Of a stretch of 64,000 nt of DNA, positions 44,263-56,803 are shown piece after piece. The DNA is from Burkholderiales bacterium RIFCSPLOWO2_12_FULL_61_40 (GTDB taxonomy: Bacteria > Pseudomonadota > Gammaproteobacteria > Burkholderiales > Burkholderiaceae_C). Location: NCBI GenBank assembly GCA_001770935.1, contig MESI01000127.1:20884-84883 (forward strand), in the 5' to 3' direction. The notes under the pieces were generated by a model. That model had not been told where the DNA came from and ran no database searches. It worked only from the letters and a program-made list of their open reading frames with translations. How positions within the stretch are numbered: the stretch's first letter is position 1; the number at the start of each line of letters is the position of its first letter. The position numbers and the translations under genes are program-made.

Positions 44263-45341
44263 GTGGTTTGGATAGGCCGGGAAACAAGCCCGTGCCGCTA
44301 CCCGCACGCCTGCACGGCGGCCCCGACGCCGCTGGCGTGCCGCGTTTTGATTTTTCCACCAACAGCAACGCCTGTGGCCCCTGTCCGGCGGTTGCCACGG
44401 CTTTGCAGCAGGCCGATGCGACCCGTTACCCGGACCCCCACTACACACGGTTGCGCACCGCATTGGCGGCTTTCCATGGGGTGGATGCGCAGCGTGTGGT
44501 GCTGGCAGGCAGCGCCAGCGAATTCATATTCCGCATCACGGCCTGGGTGGCGCAGCATGGTGCGCGGCGGGCAGGGCGCAAAGTGTGCGTGCCACCCCAC
44601 GCCTATGGCGACTACGCCCAGGCCGCCCAGGCCTGGGGCCTGGGATTGACCACCAAGCCCGCAGCGGCGCAACTCATCTGGGCCTGTGAGCCCTCCAGCC
44701 CGCTGGGCGGGACGCACACCCATTGGCCCGCATGGTTGGTCGACGCTGCTTTGCCCTTGGCGGCCCCCCCCTCCGAACCGGATTCCGCACCCCAGGCCAC
44801 CCCGCTGGTGCTGGACTGCGCCTACGCGCCGCTGCGCCTGAGCGGAGCGCCCACGCTGGACGCGCAGCAGATGGCCTGCGTCTGGCAGATGTATTCCCCC
44901 AACAAAGCCCTGGGCCTGACCGGTGTGCGCGCCGCCTATGCCATCGCCCCGCTGGGCGCCGAGGACGCAGCCGCTGAGTTGGAGCGGCTGGCGCCCTCCT
45001 GGCCGCTGGGCGCGCACGGTGTAGCGCTATTGCAAACCTGGGTGCAGCCCGAGGTGCAGACCTGGCTGACCGAGAGCCTGCACACCCTGCGCCGCTGGAA
45101 AACCATGCAAATCGACATGCTGAAAGCCCTGGGCTGGACCTGCCTGCCCAGCGACACCAATTTCTTCTGCGCCCACCCGGCCAACACCGACGGCCTGGCC
45201 GCTGAGTTGAAGCGGCTGCGCGCGGCAGGCATCAAGCTGCGCGACGCCACGTCCTTCGGCCTGCCCGGCCATGTGCGCCTGAGCGTGCAGCCGCCGGTGG
45301 CGCAGGATGCCTTGCGGGTGGCGCTTGGTGTGGCGAATTGA
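44259..45341 (+). CDS. cobC: L-threonine-O-3-phosphate decarboxylase
   Basis: A 360-residue PLP-dependent aminotransferase-fold enzyme (CobC/CobD of Salmonella) that makes (R)-1-amino-2-propanol phosphate for the nucleotide loop. It shows DFSTNSNACGPCPAV near the start, a PLP-lysine region MYSPNKALGLTGVRAAYAI and a C-terminal LRDATSFGLPGHVRLSV with the carboxylate-binding arginine. It overlaps cobD by four bases and is the last cob gene before the defence block. Confidence 0.92.
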   Translation: MSGLDRPGNKPVPLPARLHGGPDAAGVPRFDFSTNSNACGPCPAVATALQQADATRYPDPHYTRLRTALAAFHGVDAQRVVLAGSASEFIFRITAWVAQHGARRAGRKVCVPPHAYGDYAQAAQAWGLGLTTKPAAAQLIWACEPSSPLGGTHTHWPAWLVDAALPLAAPPSEPDSAPQATPLVLDCAYAPLRLSGAPTLDAQQMACVWQMYSPNKALGLTGVRAAYAIAPLGAEDAAAELERLAPSWPLGAHGVALLQTWVQPEVQTWLTESLHTLRRWKTMQIDMLKALGWTCLPSDTNFFCAHPANTDGLAAELKRLRAAGIKLRDATSFGLPGHVRLSVQPPVAQDALRVALGVAN

Positions 45342-45342
45342 C

Positions 45343-45369
45343 GTACAATTTTGCAAACAGGAGTTGTAC
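45343..45369. promoter_or_regulatory. Possible operator/promoter of the TacAT-like pair
   Basis: GTACAA and TTGTAC form an inverted repeat separated by 15 bases just before the antitoxin ATG, and TACAAT could serve as a -10 box. Type II antitoxins of this family repress their own promoter, so this is a plausible binding site; it is a prediction only. Confidence 0.4.
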
Positions 45370-45370
45370 C

Positions 45371-45640
45371 ATGCCATCCTCTCGCGCCCCTACGGAATCT
45401 GCCCGCATCAACTTGCGCACCAGCTATGAAGTTAAGGAAATGATCGAACGTGCGGCGGCGATCACGGGTTCGACGGTGTCTAGTTTTATTTCCCAGAGCA
45501 TGTACGAAACATCTAGCCGCATCGTGGCGGATACAGACACACTCCTGCTTTCTGCCGATGCGTTTGATGCCTTTGTCGCAAGGTGCGAAAACCCGCCAGA
45601 ACCCAACGAGGCGCTGAAAAAACTCATGGCATTGCGCTGA
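45371..45640 (+). CDS. tacA: DUF1778-type antitoxin (TacA-like)
   Basis: An 89-residue ribbon-helix-helix antitoxin: ARINLRTSYEVKEMIERAAA is the DNA-binding part and VSSFISQSMYETSSR the second helix; the C-terminal half (LLLSADAFDAFVARCENPPE) is the toxin-neutralising segment typical of DUF1778. ATG 45371 has AGGAG upstream. The GNAT toxin gene starts immediately after its stop, the standard TacA-TacT arrangement. Confidence 0.88.
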   Translation: MPSSRAPTESARINLRTSYEVKEMIERAAAITGSTVSSFISQSMYETSSRIVADTDTLLLSADAFDAFVARCENPPEPNEALKKLMALR

Positions 45641-46138
45641 ATGCCCATACGTATTGAGCGCTTGGCTGTCCATCACCAGCGTGCTGGTTTTGATTGCGGC
45701 GAGTCTGCCCTGAACGAGTTTTTGCACCGTCAAGCGAACCAGTTGGCTCGCAAAGGGTTTGGCAAAACCTATGTGGCCTTGGCGGACGATGGCGTTGCGG
45801 TGGTGGGCTTTGTTACCGTCAGTGCGGGTCAGGTTCAAACCCGGCAACTACCGCCGCACTCCAAGCTGCCGCGTTACCCGGCGCCGGTGTTGCGCATCGG
45901 CCGCCTAGCCGTGGATCGGCGTGAACAGGGGCGCGGCACGGGTCAGCAATTGATGTCCTTCGCTTTGCAATTGGCTTTGGAGTTTGCCGGTGTGGTTGGT
46001 ATCTACGCCGTGGTGGTGGATGCCAAGCATGAAAAAGCCAAGGCGTTTTATGAAACGCTTGGCTTTACAGCCACACTGGATAACCCTTTGTGTCTGTATT
46101 TGCCGGTATCGACCTTGCAAAAGTTGCCTGCGACGTAA
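45641..46138 (+). CDS. tacT: GNAT-family toxin (TacT-like aminoacyl-tRNA acetyltransferase)
   Basis: A 165-residue GCN5-type acetyltransferase toxin. The acetyl-CoA loop is REQGRGTGQQLM and the catalytic tyrosine is in KAFYETLGF; the N-terminal FDCGESALNEFLHRQANQLA is the signature of the TacT/AtaT-like toxin group. Such toxins acetylate charged tRNAs and stop translation unless bound by the antitoxin. The start abuts the tacA stop. Confidence 0.87.
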   Translation: MPIRIERLAVHHQRAGFDCGESALNEFLHRQANQLARKGFGKTYVALADDGVAVVGFVTVSAGQVQTRQLPPHSKLPRYPAPVLRIGRLAVDRREQGRGTGQQLMSFALQLALEFAGVVGIYAVVVDAKHEKAKAFYETLGFTATLDNPLCLYLPVSTLQKLPAT

Positions 46139-46159
46139 TGCGGTTTTGATAGGAGTCCC

Positions 46160-46222
46160 ATGCGCGTGAAGCCCCTGAGTTATTTGCAAAACCTGTACAG
46201 GTCCTCTGGAGTGCGCCATTAA
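46160..46222 (+). CDS. 20-codon upstream ORF overlapping the jetA start
   Basis: ATG 46160 is preceded by AGGAG and opens a 20-residue ORF (MRVKPLSYLQ, ending GVRH). Its TAA shares a base with the ATT that seems to start jetA (ATTAA). It may act only to bring ribosomes to the non-standard start. No homologue is recognised and expression is unproven. Confidence 0.4.
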   Translation: MRVKPLSYLQNLYRSSGVRH

Positions 46223-47705
46223 TCTCGACTACACCACCCTGGAAGCCCTGCGCCGCCAGCACCCCGCCTGGCGCCTGCTGGCGGCCGAGCACGCGCCGCT
46301 GATTGGCAGCTTTTTGCACCACGCTTTCATCGTTCCCAACGTGCGGGTGATGGCGCAGTCCGATCTGGTCGAGGGGCTGGAGGATACCTTGTTTGGCTTG
46401 CGCGAGCAGTCGGCGGCGCGTGGCGGTGGGCAGTTGTTTCCCAAGAGTGCGCAAGAGTACCTGAACGACTGGGCCGCCAACGAAAAAGGCTGGCTGCGAA
46501 AGTTTTACCCCGCAGGCTCGGACGAACCGCATTTTGACCTGACCCCGGCCACCGAGCGCGCGCTGGCTTGGTTGACCAGCCTGACGGAGCGCGCCTTTGT
46601 CGGCACCGAGTCGCGCCTGCTCACGCTGTTTGAACTGCTCAAGCAGATGAGCGAAGGCAGCGATACCAACCCCGAGACGCGCCTGCAGGAGTTGCACAAA
46701 AAACGCGACGAGATCGACGCCGAGATAGCGCTGGTGCTGGGGGGTGAGATGCCCCTGCTGGACGACACGGCGGTCAAGGAGCGCTTCCAGCAGTTCACCG
46801 GGCTGGCGCGCGAGCTGCTGACCGATTTTCGCGAGGTGGAGCACAACTTTCGCGGCCTGGACAGACGCGTGCGCGAGCGCATTGCGCTGTGGGACGGCGC
46901 CAAAGGTGCGCTGCTGGAAGAAATCATGGGCGAGCGTGACGCCATTGCCGATTCGGACCAGGGCAAGAGCTTTCGTGCCTTTTGGGACTTTTTGATGTCG
47001 CAGGCGCGCCAGGAAGAGCTGACGCAGTTGCTGGAGCGTGTGCTGCAACTGCCCCCGGTGGCGGCACTGTCGCCGGACTTGCGGCTCAAACGTGTGCACT
47101 ACGACTGGCTGGAGGCCGGTGAACACGCGCAGGCTACGGTGGCGCAGTTGTCGCAGCAGTTGCGCCGCTTTCTGGACGACCAGGCCTGGCTGGAAAACCG
47201 CCGCATCATGGATATTTTGCGCGGCATCGAGGCGCGCGCACTGGCGCTGCGCGCCACAGCGCCCACCGGGGCTTTCATGGAGGTGGACGACTTGAACGCC
47301 AGCCTGGAGCTGCCCATGGAGCGCCCGCTGTTCAGCCCGGCCCTCAAGACCGTGATTGCCAACGTGGCGCTGCAAGCGGGGGATGCGGATATGGACGCCG
47401 CCGCCCTGTTCTCGCAAGTGCGGGTCGACAAGGCCGCGCTGGCGGGCCACATCCGCCAGTCCTTGCAAACCCGAGCCCAGATCAGCCTGGGGGAACTGCT
47501 GCAAACGCGGCCACTGGAACAGGGGCTGGGCGAGCTGGTGGCCTACCTGCAACTGGCCAGTGAGGCCCCGAACTCGGTGGTGGACGAGGCCACGCTGGAG
47601 TCGGTGGAGTGGATGGTGCTGGAGCCACAAGCGGCGCCAGACAATTTGACCACCCCGGTCACCCGCCGCGCCCAACTGCCGCGCGTCATTTTTGTGAGGA
47701 GCTGA
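46218..47705 (+). CDS. jetA: Wadjet protein JetA (DUF3375), apparent ATT start
   Basis: A 495-residue DUF3375 protein, the kleisin-like subunit of type I Wadjet, which with JetB, JetC and JetD recognises and cuts closed circular plasmid DNA. The N-terminus reads NLDYTTLEALRRQHPAWRLL, LPLIG-like APLIGSFLHHAFIVPNVRVM and EDTLFGLRE. The track starts at TTG 46314, which would delete the conserved first 32 residues. The frame is open from 46179 with no ATG, GTG or TTG; ATT 46218 is at the homologous start and has TGGAG six bases upstream. If ATT does not work, this is a truncated or poorly expressed jetA. Confidence 0.88.
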   Translation: MNLDYTTLEALRRQHPAWRLLAAEHAPLIGSFLHHAFIVPNVRVMAQSDLVEGLEDTLFGLREQSAARGGGQLFPKSAQEYLNDWAANEKGWLRKFYPAGSDEPHFDLTPATERALAWLTSLTERAFVGTESRLLTLFELLKQMSEGSDTNPETRLQELHKKRDEIDAEIALVLGGEMPLLDDTAVKERFQQFTGLARELLTDFREVEHNFRGLDRRVRERIALWDGAKGALLEEIMGERDAIADSDQGKSFRAFWDFLMSQARQEELTQLLERVLQLPPVAALSPDLRLKRVHYDWLEAGEHAQATVAQLSQQLRRFLDDQAWLENRRIMDILRGIEARALALRATAPTGAFMEVDDLNASLELPMERPLFSPALKTVIANVALQAGDADMDAAALFSQVRVDKAALAGHIRQSLQTRAQISLGELLQTRPLEQGLGELVAYLQLASEAPNSVVDEATLESVEWMVLEPQAAPDNLTTPVTRRAQLPRVIFVRS

Positions 47706-47787: not shown

Positions 47788-49023
47788 ATGATTCTGCGGC
47801 ATATCCAATCGCATCTGCAAACGCTGCTGACCCACTTCCCCTGCGTGGTGCTGACCGGGGTGCGGCAGTCCGGCAAAACAACGCTCCTGAATTTGCTTCC
47901 CGGCGAATGGCGGCACTTTGATATGGAAAACTCGGCGGACCGCCAGCAACTGCTGGCCGATCCGGATCTGTTCTTGCGCTTGCATGCCGACAAGGTGGTG
48001 ATCGACGAAGCGCAGTTGGCCCCCGCCTTGTTTCCAGCGCTGCGCGTGGCGATCGACCGGGACCGCACCAGGAAAGGGCGGTTTCTATTGTCGTGCTCCA
48101 GTTCGCCGGAATTGGTCAAGAAGATTTCGGAAAGCCTGGCAGGTCGGGTGGCCCGCCTGGAAATGGCACCGCTGAGTCTGGCGGAAGCGTGGCAATTGCC
48201 ACCGTCCCGTCTTTACCCCCTGCTGGCCGAGGGCGCAGCGATTGAGGATATCCAGAGCGCTGCAGCTTCCCGCCTGACGGTGCAGCAGGTGCGTGAGTAC
48301 TGGTTCCAGGGCGGTTATCCAGAGCCCTGGTTGAGTACCAGCGAGGAATTTCGCAGTCTGTGGTACCGGCACTATATTGATGCGTATTTGCTGCGCGATA
48401 TTGGCGCTTTGTTCCCCAATCTGAACCGGGACCGTTACCGGCAGTTCATTGCCCTGTTGAGCCAGCATTCCGGCAACATTCTCAACAATGCCGACATTGC
48501 CCGAACGCTGGGCGTGAGCGAACCCACCGTGCGCGACTGGTTGGGTATCGCGCACGATACCTTTCTATGGCGGCATATCCCGGCCTGGGATCGCTCGGCG
48601 GCCAAGCAACTGGTCAAGCATCCCAAGGGTTTTCTGCGGGACAGCGGCCTGCTGCACCGGCTATTGCGAATCCCGGATATCGACATGCTGGGCACCCATC
48701 CTGCGGTTGGGAAATCGTGGGAGGGCATGGTGGTGGAAACCTTGCTGCGGGGTTTTGAGAACGCTGGCATTGACGTGAACCCCTTTCATTACCGCACGCG
48801 GGGTGGGGCGGAGATTGACCTGATCCTGGAAGGCCCGTTTGGCAGTGGCAACTTCCTGCCGGTGGAAATCAAACTGACGCAGCAGTCCGATAAACGTGCC
48901 TTGCGCTCGCTGTCAGAGTTTGTTGCGGCCCACAACTGCCCGCTGGGCCTGGTCATCAACAACGACGAGCGTCCGCGCTGGCTCGATGATCGTATTCTTG
49001 CCATTCCGGCGGCTAGTTTGTGA
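47788..49023 (+). CDS. AAA ATPase with DUF4143 domain
   Basis: A 411-residue protein of the widespread AAA_14/DUF4143 family. Walker A is VLTGVRQSGKTTLLN (about 21-35), Walker B VVIDEAQLAP, followed by FLLSCSSSPELVKKISESL and LAGRVARLEM. A helix-turn-helix-like region (NNADIARTLGVSEPTVRDWL) and the C-terminal nuclease-like DUF4143 fold (TRGGAEIDLILE, FLPVEIKLTQ) follow. The GGxEIDL...EIK pattern resembles a PD-(D/E)XK core. The family's function is unsettled. It splits the Wadjet operon between jetA and jetB. Confidence 0.88.
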   Translation: MILRHIQSHLQTLLTHFPCVVLTGVRQSGKTTLLNLLPGEWRHFDMENSADRQQLLADPDLFLRLHADKVVIDEAQLAPALFPALRVAIDRDRTRKGRFLLSCSSSPELVKKISESLAGRVARLEMAPLSLAEAWQLPPSRLYPLLAEGAAIEDIQSAAASRLTVQQVREYWFQGGYPEPWLSTSEEFRSLWYRHYIDAYLLRDIGALFPNLNRDRYRQFIALLSQHSGNILNNADIARTLGVSEPTVRDWLGIAHDTFLWRHIPAWDRSAAKQLVKHPKGFLRDSGLLHRLLRIPDIDMLGTHPAVGKSWEGMVVETLLRGFENAGIDVNPFHYRTRGGAEIDLILEGPFGSGNFLPVEIKLTQQSDKRALRSLSEFVAAHNCPLGLVINNDERPRWLDDRILAIPAASL

Positions 49024-49072
49024 CCGTGTTGATCAAGCCAATATGACCAAGTACTACTTTGGGGAAATTACG

Positions 49073-49309
49073 ATGCAAACCATTCTGACCAGCAAGGGGC
49101 AAGTCACGATACCCCGCGTTGTCCGCCAGCATTTTGGGCTCAAGCAAGGCATGGCCATTACCTTTGCAATCGAGGGTGACCACATTGCCCTGCGTGCTGC
49201 GCGCCTCCCCCGACAAACTAATGCCAGTGGTTTTGGCCTGATCCAGAGCCGACGTACCCGCGTGCCAGCGGATTTTGACGTCGCCAGCCTGGTCACTGAC
49301 GTGCCATGA
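49073..49309 (+). CDS. AbrB/MazE-type antitoxin-like protein
   Basis: A 78-residue swapped-hairpin AbrB protein (TILTSKGQVTIPRVVRQHFG is the diagnostic motif), with a C-terminal tail (RVPADFDVASLVTDVP) like those that bind VapC/MazF toxins. ATG 49073 is preferred for GGGGAAA upstream; ATG 49043 is in frame. No PIN or MazF toxin follows: only a 30-codon ORF (starting MTELDARKAG) before jetB. It may be an orphan antitoxin or a regulator of the DUF4143 gene. Confidence 0.82.
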   Translation: MQTILTSKGQVTIPRVVRQHFGLKQGMAITFAIEGDHIALRAARLPRQTNASGFGLIQSRRTRVPADFDVASLVTDVP

Positions 49310-49387
49310 CCGAGCTCGACGCCCGCAAGGCTGGAAGCCGCCGGTCAAATTGTTGGCCAATTGACCGCTTGTGGTGGAGTTCTTGTC

Positions 49388-50059
49388 ATGACGAATGAAG
49401 ACCTTGGCGATACACCTGCGGCAAACCCTGCCGCGCCCCAGCACGACCTGACCAGCCTCGTCGTCCCCTTGCTCAAAAGCGTGCTGTACCGCGATGAAGA
49501 CGCCCAGGCCTGGGCCGCCTTGCTCAAGCTGCAGGCCCGGGTGCGCGACTATGTGGCCGTGCTGGCCCTGGACCTGGTGCTGGACGAAGCTGAAGGGTAC
49601 GCCTTTTTGCGTTCTCGCTCCACGCCCGATGAAGATGCGCCCAAGTTGCCACGGCTGGTGGCGCGCCGGCCCCTGAGTTTCCAGGTCAGCCTCTTGCTGG
49701 CGCTCTTGCGCAAGAAGCTGGCCGAATTCGACGCCAGCGGCGGCGACACCCGGCTGATTTTGTCGCGTGACGCGGTGGTGGAGCTGGTGCGCGTCTTCTT
49801 GCCAACGGGCTCCAACGAATCGCGCCTGATGGACCAGGTGGAAACACATTTGAACAAGATCATCGACTTGGGTTTCGTGCGGCGCTTGAAACCCCAGGCC
49901 AGCCCTGCCGGGCGCGCGGCGCAAGAGCCGGTGTACGAGGTACGGCGCATTCTCAAGGCCTTTGTGGATGCGCAGTGGCTGGCCGAATTTGACCAGCGGC
50001 TGGCCGCCTACCAGGCGCAACTGGCAGCACCTGAAGCGGAGGGCGCTGACTATGATTGA
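49388..50059 (+). CDS. jetB: Wadjet protein JetB (DUF4194)
   Basis: A 223-residue DUF4194 protein, the KITE-like winged-helix subunit of Wadjet. Motifs: [49 protein letters not shown] and [21 protein letters not shown] 49388 has GGAG eight bases upstream; the track begins at TTG 49361. The stop overlaps the jetC ATG by eight bases, as expected for an intact jetB-jetC pair. Confidence 0.92.
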
Positions 50060-53000
50060 TAGCACGATGCCACAAGACTTCCTTGCTTCCGTTCGCCCTG
50101 AGCCTGTCGAAGGGTTGTCGGCTTCGACTGGCTCAGTCCGAACGGTTCGCGAGCCAGAACTGGATTTCAGCGCCCCCGAGGCGCTGACTGGCTTTCGCCT
50201 GATGCGCCTCGAAGTCTTCAACTGGGGCACCTTCGACAAACGCGTCTGGACGCTGGCGCTGGATGGCAAAAACGGTTTGCTGACCGGCGACATCGGCTCT
50301 GGCAAGTCCACGCTGGTCGATGCCATCACGACCCTGCTGGTTCCGGCCCAACGCATCGCCTACAACAAGGCCGCTGGGGCAGATGCGCGGGAACGCTCGC
50401 TGCGCTCCTACGTGCTGGGCCACTACAAATCCGAGCGCAACGAGGTCAGCGGCAATGCCAAACCTGTGGCGCTGCGGGACCAGAGCAACTATTCGGTGAT
50501 TCTGGGCGTGTTCCACAACGCCGGTTTCGACCAGACCGTGACGCTGGCGCAGGTGTTCTGGATCAAGGATGCGGGCGGTCAACCCGAGCGCTTTTATGCG
50601 GTCGCGGAAAAGCCCCTGGCGTTGGCCACTGACTTCGCCCACTTTGGCACGGAGATAGCGCAGTTGCGCAAACGCCTGCGCAAAAACGGCGTCGAGCTGT
50701 TTGACAGCTTTCCGCCCTACGGCGCGCATTTTCGCCGCCGCTTTGGCATCGAGGGCGAGCAGGCGCTGGAGCTGTTTCACCAAACGGTGTCCATGAAATC
50801 GGTGGGCAACCTGACCGACTTTGTGCGTCACCATATGCTGGAGCCATTTGACGTGGCGCCGCGCATCTCTAGTCTGATTGCGCACTTTGACGATCTGAAC
50901 CGCGCCCATGAGGCCGTTCTCAAAGCCAAGCAGCAGGTGGAACTGCTCTCGCCCCTGGTGGCCGACTGCGACCGGCATGCCGCGCTGCTGGCGGCCACGG
51001 ATGAACTGCGCGCTTGCCGCGAAGGGCTCAAGGCCCACTTTGCCGGGCTCAAGCTGGCCCTGATTGATGCGCGCCTGGAGACGCTGGCCGACAATTTCAA
51101 GAGCGAAAGCACCAAGGTCGAGCGGCTGGAAGCACGTAAAACAGCCCAGCAAGTGCAGGAACGCGAACTGCGCCTGAGCATCGCCCACAGCGGCGGCGAC
51201 CGCATCGCCCGCATTGATGCGGAGATTGCGCGCAGGCAGTTGGAGATCACACGGCGCCAAGCCAACGCCACACGTTACGACGAACTGCGGCAAAAACTCA
51301 ACTTGCTGCAGGTACGCAGCGCCGAAGACCTGGTGGTACAGCAGCAAACCTGCGCTCAAAAACACGAGGTCGAGAGCTGCCGCGCCGTGGAGCTGCAAAA
51401 CGAACGCAACGAACTGGGCGTGACTTTTGCCCAGGGGCGCCAGGAGCACGAGGCCCTGAGCGCCGAGATCGCCAGCCTACAGGGTCGGCGCAGCAACATC
51501 GATGCACAGCAAATCGCCGTGCGCGCCGCCCTGTGCCAGGCCCTGAATGTGCGGGAAGATGCCATGCCCTTTGCTGGCGAGTTGATCGAGGTGCGCGACG
51601 ATGAACGCGACTGGGAAGGCGCTGCCGAGCGCTTGATGCACAACTTTGCGCTCTCCCTGTTGGTGCCGGAGGCGCACTACGCCAAGGTGGCTGAATGGGT
51701 GGACCAAACCCATTTGAAAGGCCGCCTGGTGTACTTTTGCGTACGCGCGGCCAAGCAGGCGGACTTGCCCTCGGCGCACGCCGATGCGCTGGTGCGCAAG
51801 CTGACGCTCAAGCCCGATTCGCCGTTTTACGCCTGGCTGGAAAATGCCGTTTGGCAGCGCTTCAACGTGGTGTGTTGCAGCACCCAGGAGCAGTTTCGCC
51901 GCGAACCCAAAGCCATTACCCGCGCCGGGCAGAGCAAAGGCGGCGAGCGCCACGAGAAAGACGACCGCCACCGCATCGACGACCGCAGCCGCTACGTGCT
52001 GGGCTGGAGCAACACCGCCAAACTCGACGCGTTGAACGGCAAGAAGCGCGGGCTCGAAGCGCACCTGGCCCACACCGGCAAACAACTGGCTGACGTGGAC
52101 CGCGAGCAAGGCGAAATCAAGGAACGCCTGGCGACCCTGTCCAAACTGGTGGAATACCGCGACTACGCCGAACTCGACTGGCCCGTGATCGCGCTGGAGG
52201 TGGCCAAGCTGGCCGACGAACTCGCGGCGCTCAAAGCCGCCTCCGATGTGCTGCAGACCCTGACAAAAAGCCTGGGCGAGCTGGAAGCCGAGCTGCAAAC
52301 CACCGAACAGCAACTGACGGAGCAGCGCGAGCGGCGCGCCAAAACCGAGCAAAAAACCAGCGACATGCAGGTGCTGCGTAGTCAAACTGAGGCGTTGCGG
52401 GGCAACTGGGCAAAGCAAGAAGCCCTAGCCACGCGCCTAATCAGTTTGCAACAAGAAATACTTGGCGAACACACGCTGACCATCGAATCCTGCGACAACC
52501 GGGAGCGCGAGATGCGCGACGGGCTGCAAAAAGCCATCGATGCCGACGATGGCCGCACCAAGCGCCTGCGCGACAAAATCATCGACGCCATGCGCAGTTT
52601 CAGCACCCGCTACCCGCTGGAGACGCAGGAGGTGGATGTGGCGGTGGAGGCGGCGGGCGAGTACCGCACCCTGCTCGACAAACTGGCCATGGATGACCTG
52701 CCGCGTTTTGAGACGCGCTTCAAGGAACTGCTGAACCAGAACACCATCCGCGAAGTGGCGCAGTTCAACACCAAGCTGAACAACGAGCGCGAAACCATCA
52801 AGGCGCGCATCGCCCGCATCAACCAGTCGCTCACGCAAATCGATTACAACCCCGGCCGCTACATCGTGCTGGAAGCGCAGGTCAGCACGGACGCCGAAGT
52901 GCGCGACTTCCAGACCGAATTGCGCACCTGCCTGGAGGGCTCGCTCTCGGGCTCCAATGGCAACAACGACGAGGGCCAATATTCCGAGGCCAAGTTCCTG

Positions 53001-53519
53001 CAGGTCAAGCACATCATCGAACGCCTGCGGGGCCGCGAAGGGCAGGGCGAGCAAGACCGGCGCTGGGCCGCCAAGGTCACCGATGTGCGCAACTGGTTTG
53101 TGTTCTCGGGCAGTGAACGCTGGCGCGAAGACGACCGCGAACACGAGCACTACTCGGACTCGGGCGGCAAGTCCGGCGGTCAAAAAGAGAAGCTGGCCTA
53201 CACCATATTGGCGGCCAGCCTGGCCTACCAGTTCGGCCTGGCCTGGGGCGAAAAGCGCTCGCGCAGCTTCCGCTTCGTGGTGATCGACGAAGCCTTTGGC
53301 CGCGGCTCGGACGAGTCGGCGCAATATGGACTGAAGCTGTTCCAGCAACTCAATCTGCAACTGCTGATCGTCACCCCGCTGCAAAAAATCCACATCATCG
53401 AGCCCTATGTGGCCAGCGTGGGGTTTGTGCACAACGAGGAGGGGCGTGATTCCAAGTTGCGCAATTTGAGTATTGAGGAGTACCGGGAGGAGAAGGGGCG
53501 TGTGGAGTTGGCGAAGTAG
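50052..53519 (+). CDS. jetC: Wadjet protein JetC (SMC/MukB-like ATPase)
   Basis: A 1,155-residue SMC-like ATPase, the DNA-loop-extruding motor of Wadjet. Walker A is [16 protein letters not shown] (about 77-92). Long coiled-coil arms occupy about 300-500 and 640-900, with a hinge-like globular part between. The C-terminal head has [20 protein letters not shown] and Walker [17 protein letters not shown]. Residues about 12-32 ([20 protein letters not shown]) are encoded by a common proteobacterial palindromic repeat and are probably disordered. The protein otherwise appears full length and intact. Confidence 0.95.
50089..50145. repeat. Palindromic 'VRPEPVEG' repeat in frame near the jetC start
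   Basis: CCGTTCGCCCTGAGCCTGTC, GAAGG..., CTTCGACTGGCTCAG, TCCGAACGG form an imperfect inverted repeat. I know this sequence as a widespread intergenic repeat in proteobacteria, usually read as VRPEPVEG when it falls in a frame. It adds about 20 residues to JetC. Confidence 0.8.
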
Positions 53520-53633: not shown

Positions 53634-54863
53634 ATGGCATTGATCGAAGGTTTTCGCGTTCAGAATTACCGCGCGTTAAGAGACGTAACGTTGGGCAAGC
53701 TTTCTTCGCAGGGCGGCGAACCGCTGACGCCGTTTACGGTGGTGATCGGTAAAAACGGAGTGGGCAAGAGCACCTTGTTTGATGCTTTTGGTTTCGTGGC
53801 CGACTGCTTGGTGCACGACGTGGAGCAGGCTTGTGACATGAAGCAGCGTGGTGGCTACGAGCGCTTGCGTTCCAGAGGGACAATCGACCCGATTCGGTTT
53901 GAAATCTATTACCGAGAGGCCACGGGCGAACGACCAATGACTTACGAGTTGTCGATTGCATTGGACGAAACCGGGCGCCCCTTTGTCGAGTCTGAGTTAC
54001 TGAAACAGCGGCGTAAGGGACAAAAGCATGGTCGACCGTACCCTTTTTTGCGACTGAACCACGGCAAAGGCATGGTTTGGGCGGGCGAGGAAGCGGTTGA
54101 GGCGGAAGGGGGCGAGGAGGATCGTGCTCAGACCTTGGTTGAGTTGACCGACCTGCGCCAGTTGGGTATTGCTACATTGGGTACGCTCAAAGAGCATCCC
54201 CGCATCAAGCGTTTTCGTGACTTTTTGAAGGGCTGGTACCTGTCGTACTTTTACCCCGATGCAGCCCGCAGTCTTCCAACTGCTGGCCCCCAGAAACACT
54301 TGAACAGCCATGGCGACAACATTGGCAATGTGGTGCAGTTCATGGCGCGGGAGCACAAGGATAGGTTCAAGGCGGTTCTTGATCGCATAGCGGCCAAAAT
54401 TCCCGGTATCAGGAGCATCGACACCCAGGAAACCCAGGACAAACGTTTGCTGCTGCGCTTCAATGACGGGGCGTTTGCTGACCCATTTTTTGCGCAGCAG
54501 ATGTCCGACGGCACCCTCAAGGTGTTTGCCTACCTGCTGTTGATGGACGACCCCGAGCCGCCGCCCTTTATTTGCATTGAAGAACCCGAAAACGGTCTGT
54601 ACCACAAGCTGCTAGAGGCACTGGCGCAAGAGTTTCGCGCACATGCCACCGGCAAGAAAAATGCGCCCCAGATTTTTGTGACGACACACCAGCCCTACTT
54701 TGTCGACGCCTTGTCGCCGGACGAAGTCTGGATTTTGGAGAAGGGCGCGGATGGTTATTCATTCATCCGGCGGGTGTCTGATCTGGAGATTGTCAAAAAC
54801 CTGGTCGAAGAGGGTTTGCCGCTGGGTGGTCTTTGGTACAGCGACTATCTGGAGACGAAGTAA
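53634..54863 (+). CDS. AAA ATPase (AAA_21/OLD-like) of a two-gene insert
   Basis: A 409-residue RecF/OLD-type ATPase. Walker A is VIGKNGVGKSTLFDAF (37-52), with signature-like QQMSDGTLKVFAYLLLM and Walker B FICIEEPENGLYHKLLEAL followed by IFVTTHQPYFVDAL. It has no TOPRIM domain of its own; the next gene may provide one. The arrangement resembles split OLD-type or Abi-type ATPase/nuclease defence pairs. It separates jetC from jetD. ATG 53634 follows AAGGA. Confidence 0.85.
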   Translation: MALIEGFRVQNYRALRDVTLGKLSSQGGEPLTPFTVVIGKNGVGKSTLFDAFGFVADCLVHDVEQACDMKQRGGYERLRSRGTIDPIRFEIYYREATGERPMTYELSIALDETGRPFVESELLKQRRKGQKHGRPYPFLRLNHGKGMVWAGEEAVEAEGGEEDRAQTLVELTDLRQLGIATLGTLKEHPRIKRFRDFLKGWYLSYFYPDAARSLPTAGPQKHLNSHGDNIGNVVQFMAREHKDRFKAVLDRIAAKIPGIRSIDTQETQDKRLLLRFNDGAFADPFFAQQMSDGTLKVFAYLLLMDDPEPPPFICIEEPENGLYHKLLEALAQEFRAHATGKKNAPQIFVTTHQPYFVDALSPDEVWILEKGADGYSFIRRVSDLEIVKNLVEEGLPLGGLWYSDYLETK

Positions 54864-54866
54864 GCC

Positions 54867-55511
54867 ATGCACATCGAGGTTTTGGTGGAGGACAGCTCCG
54901 GGGAAAGGCTGTTGGCACAACTGCTGCCGCAAATCATCGGCGAGCAGGGGGCGCCACACACTTGGCGGCTCAAAGCCTACAAGGGCATTGGACGTATTCC
55001 GCAAGGTCTGTCGCCAAAGGCGGACCCGGCCAAACGCATACTGCTTGATCAGTTGCCCCGGTTGCTGCAAGGCTATGGAAAAACGCCAGGTATCGATGCG
55101 GTCGTCGTGGTGCTGGACACGGATCGGCGAAATTGCAAAGAATTTCTGCAAGAGTTGAAGTCGGTTGCTGACAACTGCAACCCGGTGCCGCACACGCTGT
55201 TTCGGCTGGCCATTGAGGAGGTGGAAGCCTGGTATCTGGGAGACCGCGCCGCCTTGCTGAAAGCCTACCCGCGCGCCAAGCGGGATGTGCTGGACCGTTA
55301 CGTGCAGGACAGCGCGTGCGGCACCTGGGAACTGCTGGCCGATGCCGTCCATGCGGGTGGCGCTGCGGCCATCAAAAAGGCGAGTTGGCCATTGCCTGGG
55401 CAGATAAAACATGAGTGGGCTGAAAAAATCGGCCCCTTGATGCGTCTTGATCAAAACGTGTCGCCAAGCTTCGGCAAATTTCGTGACGGCCTGTTGCGGA
55501 TGATTGCGTAA
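54867..55511 (+). CDS. DUF4276 (TOPRIM-like) protein
   Basis: A 214-residue protein of the DUF4276 type: an N-terminal glutamate in IEVLVEDSSGERLL and an acidic strand VVVVLDTDRRNCKEF have the form of TOPRIM metal sites, and LFRLAIEEVEAWYLGD is the family's helical motif. It starts three bases after the ATPase stop, so the two are surely co-translated and probably form one nuclease/ATPase complex. The exact activity is unproven. Confidence 0.8.
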   Translation: MHIEVLVEDSSGERLLAQLLPQIIGEQGAPHTWRLKAYKGIGRIPQGLSPKADPAKRILLDQLPRLLQGYGKTPGIDAVVVVLDTDRRNCKEFLQELKSVADNCNPVPHTLFRLAIEEVEAWYLGDRAALLKAYPRAKRDVLDRYVQDSACGTWELLADAVHAGGAAAIKKASWPLPGQIKHEWAEKIGPLMRLDQNVSPSFGKFRDGLLRMIA

Positions 55512-55558: not shown

Positions 55559-56803
55559 ATGAGCTGGACCACCCCTGCCGACCTGCGCGCCCAAGTGCAA
55601 AAGCTGTGGGACAAAGGAGACTTGCTGCGCCCGTGTGTGCAGGGCGAGGCGATGCCACCCCGGCGCCTGCGGCTGGTGGGACCGACCTCGACCGAGCTGA
55701 GCGAGCGCTTTGACGCGGTGCGCGCCTGGATGGCGGACTTGCGACAAGGCGCAACACCACACAGCACGCCGCGTTATCGCATCGTTTTGCGCGAGTTCCG
55801 CCACCGCGTGCTGGGCGCCAACGCCGTGCCGGACGAGGTCTGGCTGGACACCTTGGATGACGCGTTGGCGCTGATTGGCAAGCAAAAGGACGCCAAACGC
55901 TTCGCCAGCCTGGTGCATGCGACCCGCGAACAATACCCTGTGCTTTGGCCCGCCTTGTTGCCCTGGCTGGAAAAGCGGCCGCTCCAGGTGCTGGCGCTGG
56001 TGGACGCCTGGCCGCGCCTGCTGGCCGTGGTTTGCTGGCTGCAGGACCATCCGCGCCCCGGTATTTACCTGCGGCAGGTGGATCTGGCGGGGGTGGACAG
56101 CAAGTTCATCGAGGCAAACCGGGGCGTGTTGTCGGAACTGCTGGACTTGGCCTTGCCCATGGATGCCATCGACGCCAGCGCCACCGGCACCAGCCAGTTC
56201 TGCCGCCGCTACGGCTTCAAGGACAAACCCCTGCGCATTCGCTTTCGCCTGCTGGACCCGCAAATTACGCTGCTGCCAGCGGGATGTGAGCAGGACATGG
56301 GCGTGACGCAGGCGGCGTTTGAGCAACTTGACCTGCCCGTCAACCGCGTGTTCATCACCGAAAACGAGGTGAATTTTCTGGCCTTTCCGCCGCTGCCGGG
56401 CAGCATGGTGATTTTCGGCGCGGGTTATGGTTTTGAGGTACTGGCCGGTGCCCGCTGGCTGCACCAACGTGACGTGTTCTACTGGGGCGATATCGACACC
56501 CACGGCTTTGCCATCCTGGACCAATTGCGTGCGCAATTTCCCCAGGTGCAATCCTTGCTGATGGACAAAGCCACCTTGCTGGCCCATGCCACACAATGGG
56601 GCGAAGAGCCGCAGCCGGTGCTGCGCGACCTGCCGCGCCTTACGGTGGAGGAGCGTGCTGTGTTTGACGCGCTGCGCGACAACCGGCTGCGTGTGGGCCT
56701 GCGGCTGGAGCAGGAGCGTATTGGTTTTGACTGGCTGCAAAAGAATTTGGCGGCACTGGCCCCTGGAGATGGTGCGGCCTTTGATATTGAGGATAAAAAG
56801 TGA
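55559..56803 (+). CDS. jetD: Wadjet protein JetD (DUF3322/DUF2220, topoisomerase VI-like nuclease)
   Basis: A 414-residue JetD, the DNA-cleaving subunit of Wadjet. The N-terminal DUF3322 domain opens with TPADLRAQVQKLWDKGDLLR; the central part has a winged-helix-like region; the C-terminal TOPRIM (DUF2220) has RVFITENEVNFLAFPPLPGS and FYWGDIDTHGFAILDQLR, including the catalytic Glu and DxD. Length and motifs indicate an intact nuclease. It is separated from jetC by the ATPase/DUF4276 pair, 47 bases after the latter, and followed by a repeat copy and cobQ. Confidence 0.93.
   Translation: MSWTTPADLRAQVQKLWDKGDLLRPCVQGEAMPPRRLRLVGPTSTELSERFDAVRAWMADLRQGATPHSTPRYRIVLREFRHRVLGANAVPDEVWLDTLDDALALIGKQKDAKRFASLVHATREQYPVLWPALLPWLEKRPLQVLALVDAWPRLLAVVCWLQDHPRPGIYLRQVDLAGVDSKFIEANRGVLSELLDLALPMDAIDASATGTSQFCRRYGFKDKPLRIRFRLLDPQITLLPAGCEQDMGVTQAAFEQLDLPVNRVFITENEVNFLAFPPLPGSMVIFGAGYGFEVLAGARWLHQRDVFYWGDIDTHGFAILDQLRAQFPQVQSLLMDKATLLAHATQWGEEPQPVLRDLPRLTVEERAVFDALRDNRLRVGLRLEQERIGFDWLQKNLAALAPGDGAAFDIEDKK

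Follow-up and report, generated by a model that had tools for sequence, protein, structure and literature searches.

At which codon does jetA begin in this Burkholderiales genome? In the 64,000-nucleotide stretch of DNA analysed here (the window), the jetA frame was scanned for ATG, GTG and TTG between the upstream stop and codon 33, and none was found before the TTG at that codon (Table 1). When the frame is read from an ATT upstream of this TTG, the PADLOC JetA1 match begins at residue 3 and the DUF3375 profile at residue 11. The first-pass annotation had proposed that jetA starts at this ATT, six bases after TGGAG, that the start is translationally coupled to a 20-codon upstream ORF, and that the arrangement may keep a costly nuclease system at low level. 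Base-by-base verification confirmed the ATT in initiator position with its GGAG, and the open frame indeed lacks canonical start codons upstream of the TTG. The short ORF is also present as described, with its own AGGAG and a TAA (46220-46222) whose first base is the last T of the ATT (ATTAA). A pseudogene is ruled out by the intact reading frame and by a pN/pS of 0.11 across jetA between the window genome (G000) and its nearest relative, G015.

Table 1. Features of the jetA region, in coordinates of the window.
Feature	Position	Strand	Remarks
tacA-like antitoxin ORF (start uncertain)	45338..45640	+	TacA1 family 5e-24
tacT-like GNAT toxin gene	45641..46138	+	Acetyltransf_1; stop 46136-46138, 79 bases before ATT
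AGGAG before the 20-codon ORF	46151..46155	+	ATGAG in nearest relative G015
20-codon ORF ending in TAA overlapping ATT, in frame with tacT	ATG 46160..46222	+	peptide not conserved
GGAG, predicted jetA Shine-Dalgarno (SD), six-base spacer to ATT	46208..46211	+	GGAG at spacing 5-7 in 13/13 AUU/AUC loci
ATT, inferred jetA start codon	46218..46220	+	same column ATT/ATC in 13 clade loci, ATG/GTG/TTG in others
jetA from the ATT (DUF3375; JetA of type I Wadjet)	46218..47705	+	PF11855 E 5e-153; PADLOC JetA1 E 3e-219
TTG, first canonical in-frame codon of jetA (codon 33)	46314..46316	+	rejected as start
jetB (start uncertain)	49361..50059	+	PADLOC JetB1
jetC (start approximate)	50052..53519	+	PADLOC JetC1
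jetD	55559..56803	+	PADLOC JetD1

The gene is the first of a type I Wadjet (JetABCD) cluster in which all four components were matched by PADLOC, and further genes separate jetA from jetB and jetC from jetD. The first interval holds an AAA_14/DUF4143 ATPase gene (47788-49023), listed by PADLOC as the candidate PDC-S01, and an ORF that by eye looks AbrB-like (about 49059-49309). An AAA_21 ATPase gene (53634-54863) and a gene for a DUF4276 protein (54867-55511), which PADLOC designates HEC-01A and HEC-01B, occupy the second and thus form a candidate defence pair nested inside another system.

Reading the codon at the jetA start column in 126 distinct loci, many of them from metagenome assemblies, we found ATG in 64, TTG in 17, GTG in 15, ATT in 12, ATC in 4 and other codons in 14. 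Two ATC loci with a canonical codon two positions downstream were left out of the AUU/AUC count, as was one ATT locus (L060:5093, a Sulfurimicrobium MAG) that lies outside the main clade and has no SD. The 13 that were counted all belong to a single Comamonadaceae clade, mostly Rhodoferax, of about 31 loci (SH-aLRT 96); the nearest named JetA relatives of the window genome, a 5-Mb genome in 132 contigs, are likewise Rhodoferax. A sequencing error concealing a true ATG is very unlikely, since the ATT recurs in independent assemblies: G015, whose JetA is 94% identical, has the same ATT in a separate assembly, and 11 further loci have ATT or ATC. Because the codon and a strong SD recur together in 13 related loci, AUU/AUC with GGAG is, on sequence comparison, a maintained feature of this JetA clade. 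A second family search, started from a different centre, led back to the same genomes. Sampling more broadly, at class level, we saw neither ATT nor ATC at the start column in 17 additional loci; a search for viral JetA homologues found none, and among 10 plasmid records (best 67% identical) none was near enough to inform the start. As a control on the method, jetD was found to start with ATG or GTG in 46 of 47 loci and with AUU/AUC in none.

GGAG stands at a spacing of 5-7 bases in 13 of 13 AUU/AUC clade loci vs 1 of 18 canonical loci of more than 71% identity (Fisher 7e-8, relatedness ignored), and its background frequency is 0.29% per position. Once relatedness is allowed for, by taking supported independent pairs, the SD goes with AUU/AUC in an average of 5.5 of 7 pairs and against it in 0.2, but the sign test then reaches a median p of only 0.06. 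Within the clade, loci with AUU/AUC and GGAG are interspersed with others that start canonically, for the most part without an SD, and in the whole set just 1 of 64 jetA ATG starts has an SD core. Where ATG starts of the two genes were compared in the same loci, the core was present in 13 of 37 for jetD vs 1 of 30 for jetA (p 0.002).

Codons 3-18 show the pattern of coding sequence whether a locus starts with AUU/AUC or canonically, with pN/pS values of 0.30 and 0.27, respectively; for codons upstream of the start column the corresponding values are 0.92 and 0.99. L042 reads TAG TGC ATT, and with an in-frame stop two codons before the ATT, no codon further upstream can be its start. In four other loci (L002, L005, L019 and L129), the frame is free of ATG, GTG and TTG between the upstream stop and codon 9 or beyond. 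Elsewhere other in-frame candidates do exist, either upstream (ATG at -7 in L045, TTG at -8 in L028 and L036, and both GTG and TTG further upstream in L029) or downstream (TTG at codon 3 in L003 and L030, and ATG at codon 10/11 in L005, L028, L033, L044 and L045). The comparison, with ATT or ATC at the same column throughout the 13 loci, strongly supports the proposal that the ATT is the jetA start.

Three other ways of placing the N-terminus are very improbable. If initiation occurred only at an internal canonical codon, here TTG 46314, JetA would be shorter by 32 residues; this is the first in-frame ATG, GTG or TTG, but its use would remove the conserved residues at which the DUF3375 profile begins. 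Purifying selection acts on codons 3-18 of the AUU/AUC loci, and the GGAG accompanies the ATT rather than the TTG. Equally improbable is a start at the in-frame CTG at 46206. CTG is a permissible weak start codon, and in G000 and G015 it has AGG upstream; however, the other AUU/AUC loci do not share it, it would put GGAG inside the coding region, and in L042 the in-frame TAG separates any upstream codon from the ATT. Nor do we give much credence to +1 frameshifting at CAU-UAA, by which the 20-codon ORF would encode the true JetA N-terminus and the ATT would be internal. In its favour, ATTAA belongs to both frames, and the short ORF opens with an ATG behind an AGGAG. Against it, ATT/ATC with GGAG persists in loci without this ORF, whose SD and peptide are unconserved, and the start codon of canonical relatives falls precisely in the ATT column; in L042, L044, L045 and L030, moreover, the same event would fuse tacT to JetA.

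Whereas the ATT withstands comparison, the coupling to the 20-codon ORF does not find support in the form proposed. In the window, this ORF fills the gap downstream of tacT, in the same frame, and ends at the ATTAA junction. It is present only in G000 and G015, and in G015 its SD is lost, so that we found no conserved short ORF with a ribosome-binding site ending at the jetA start. Because an ATT followed by AAT or AAC (AAY) creates the TAA automatically, the stop is a by-product; shuffling the leader yielded an ATG ORF ending at ATTAA in 20% of cases and one with an SD core in 1.1%. The ORF by itself is weak evidence and the weak part of the proposal; coupling through it may occur in this one genome, but the general feature is AUU/AUC with GGAG. 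A structured leader was also sought at 46139-46260, where folding was poorer than in shuffles (z +1.67).

Coupling to the upstream gene tacT is, by contrast, plausible for the lineage, judging by how the two genes meet. The tacAT pair precedes jetA in L002, L003, L030, L042, L044 and L045, and in the last four of these full-length tacT reaches the ATT and terminates at an overlapping TAA or TAG (ATTAA/ATTAG), which suggests termination-reinitiation coupling; in the window, tacT stops short of this junction. Changing ATT to ATG in those four loci would convert the tacT stop to GAA or GAG, so the codon is locked where tacT overlaps. The two loci that combine tacT with an ATG start, L023 and L037, have the tacT stop six bases before the ATG. 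A further arrangement occurs in L026, where tacT terminates at a CATTAA that lies 22 bases upstream of the JetA column and has no GGAG; the ATT of this CATTAA, ~27 bases before the start column and in frame, would add nine codons.

The start codon has changed repeatedly. Mapped on the tree, the AUU/AUC label needs 11 changes, at least 7 of them on supported branches. In G009, a third close relative, jetA starts with GTG and the upstream sequence is unrelated right up to the start codon, and some start-codon switches thus probably accompanied an exchange of the sequence upstream.

From these patterns we infer initiation at the AUU itself, low output, IF3 dependence and coupling, and we consider it likely, overall, that jetA starts at AUU 46218 behind GGAG, with IF3 discriminating against this start and JetA made at a low rate, and with possible coupling to tacT. 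The GGAG would anchor the 30S subunit on the AUU, which the initiator tRNA would read inefficiently and against which IF3 would discriminate. JetA, the kleisin-like subunit of the type I Wadjet anti-plasmid system, would then be made at a low rate and fewer Wadjet complexes would form; in several clade members, tacT termination at AUUAA/AUUAG could lead to reinitiation on jetA. AUU/AUC initiation is thus probably genuine and SD-supported, and probably holds JetA low. That a nuclease system would be expressed at low level here, as was suggested at first pass, is a reasonable expectation for JetA in the light of published AUU/AUA reporters. In Listeria, reporters rank ATG > ATA > ATT (PMC13068326), and in E. 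coli excess IF3 inhibits non-canonical starts and reinitiation (PMC2268962).

The low-output part of this reading, and that part only, has to be weighed against the possibility that the AUU is a frozen by-product of the tacT stop overlap, without a regulatory role. The four loci in which tacT stops on ATTAA/ATTAG fit such an origin, as do the two loci with tacT and an ATG start, in which the tacT stop lies six bases upstream instead. AUU/AUC is nevertheless retained in seven clade loci with upstream genes other than tacT (L005 and L033 have cobC there, L028 and L036 what by eye looks like the tail of a PIN-toxin-like gene, and the rest other genes), and in those seven a single substitution would give ATG. 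The AUU may therefore be a by-product not selected for low output, a possibility we regard as real though rather unlikely. Speculatively, an AUU/AUC start could tie Wadjet to initiation fidelity, such that a shift in IF3 or initiator tRNA (stress, GNAT toxin) would raise JetA and turn Wadjet on; we hold this to be improbable.

AUU-class starts are already known; what is unusual in jetA is that they recur within a single clade and that the start can overlap a toxin gene. Across 36 groups of prokaryotic genomes, a change from AUG to AUU was seen in 1 of 61,358 ancestral AUG starts (PMC5622118), vs AUU/AUC in 13 of 31 clade loci of a single gene here, with at least seven changes. Our searches of the open-access literature, outside which most subscription journals lie, turned up no account of an AUU start for Wadjet or any other defence system. 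The clade constitutes a natural series in which to test the trade-off between start codon and SD, and it suggests that a potentially self-endangering defence complex may be limited at translation. In practical terms, annotation that accepts only ATG, GTG or TTG would misplace or truncate such jetA genes.

Among known systems, infC, the gene for IF3, starts at AUU in E. coli and at AUA in S. aureus, and uses this codon for autoregulation. It resembles jetA in having an AUU-class start, discriminated by IF3, behind an SD; in Rhodoferax relatives, infC apparently starts at ATC after AAGGA (L149, L151, L153, L155, L156, L157, L159 and L160), so that the AUU/AUC start class looks usable in the window's genus. 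The window genome's own infC was looked for in its assembly and not found. Unlike IF3, JetA is not an initiation factor, and the jetA start codon varies between related species. The pcnB gene of E. coli, like jetA, is a non-infC gene with an AUU start, which reportedly limits its output (work of 2002 attributed to Binns and Masters and cited in PMC13009471), but it encodes an unrelated protein and does not head a defence operon. The S. aureus genes cvfC1 (AUU) and ccpN (AUA), which have extended SDs and in poor medium yield about 10% of the output from AUG (PMC13009471), share with jetA a conserved non-canonical start and a strong SD, and cvfC1 is also first in its operon (PMC13009471); they are, however, Firmicutes genes without a role in defence, and their output was measured, whereas that of jetA is predicted from sequence. 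In Streptomyces, the GTC start of sigR sets operon stoichiometry and is repressed by IF3 (PMC5472188); sigR is thus like jetA in its non-canonical start, but the codon is GTC, the product is a regulatory protein, and the start was proven by experiment.
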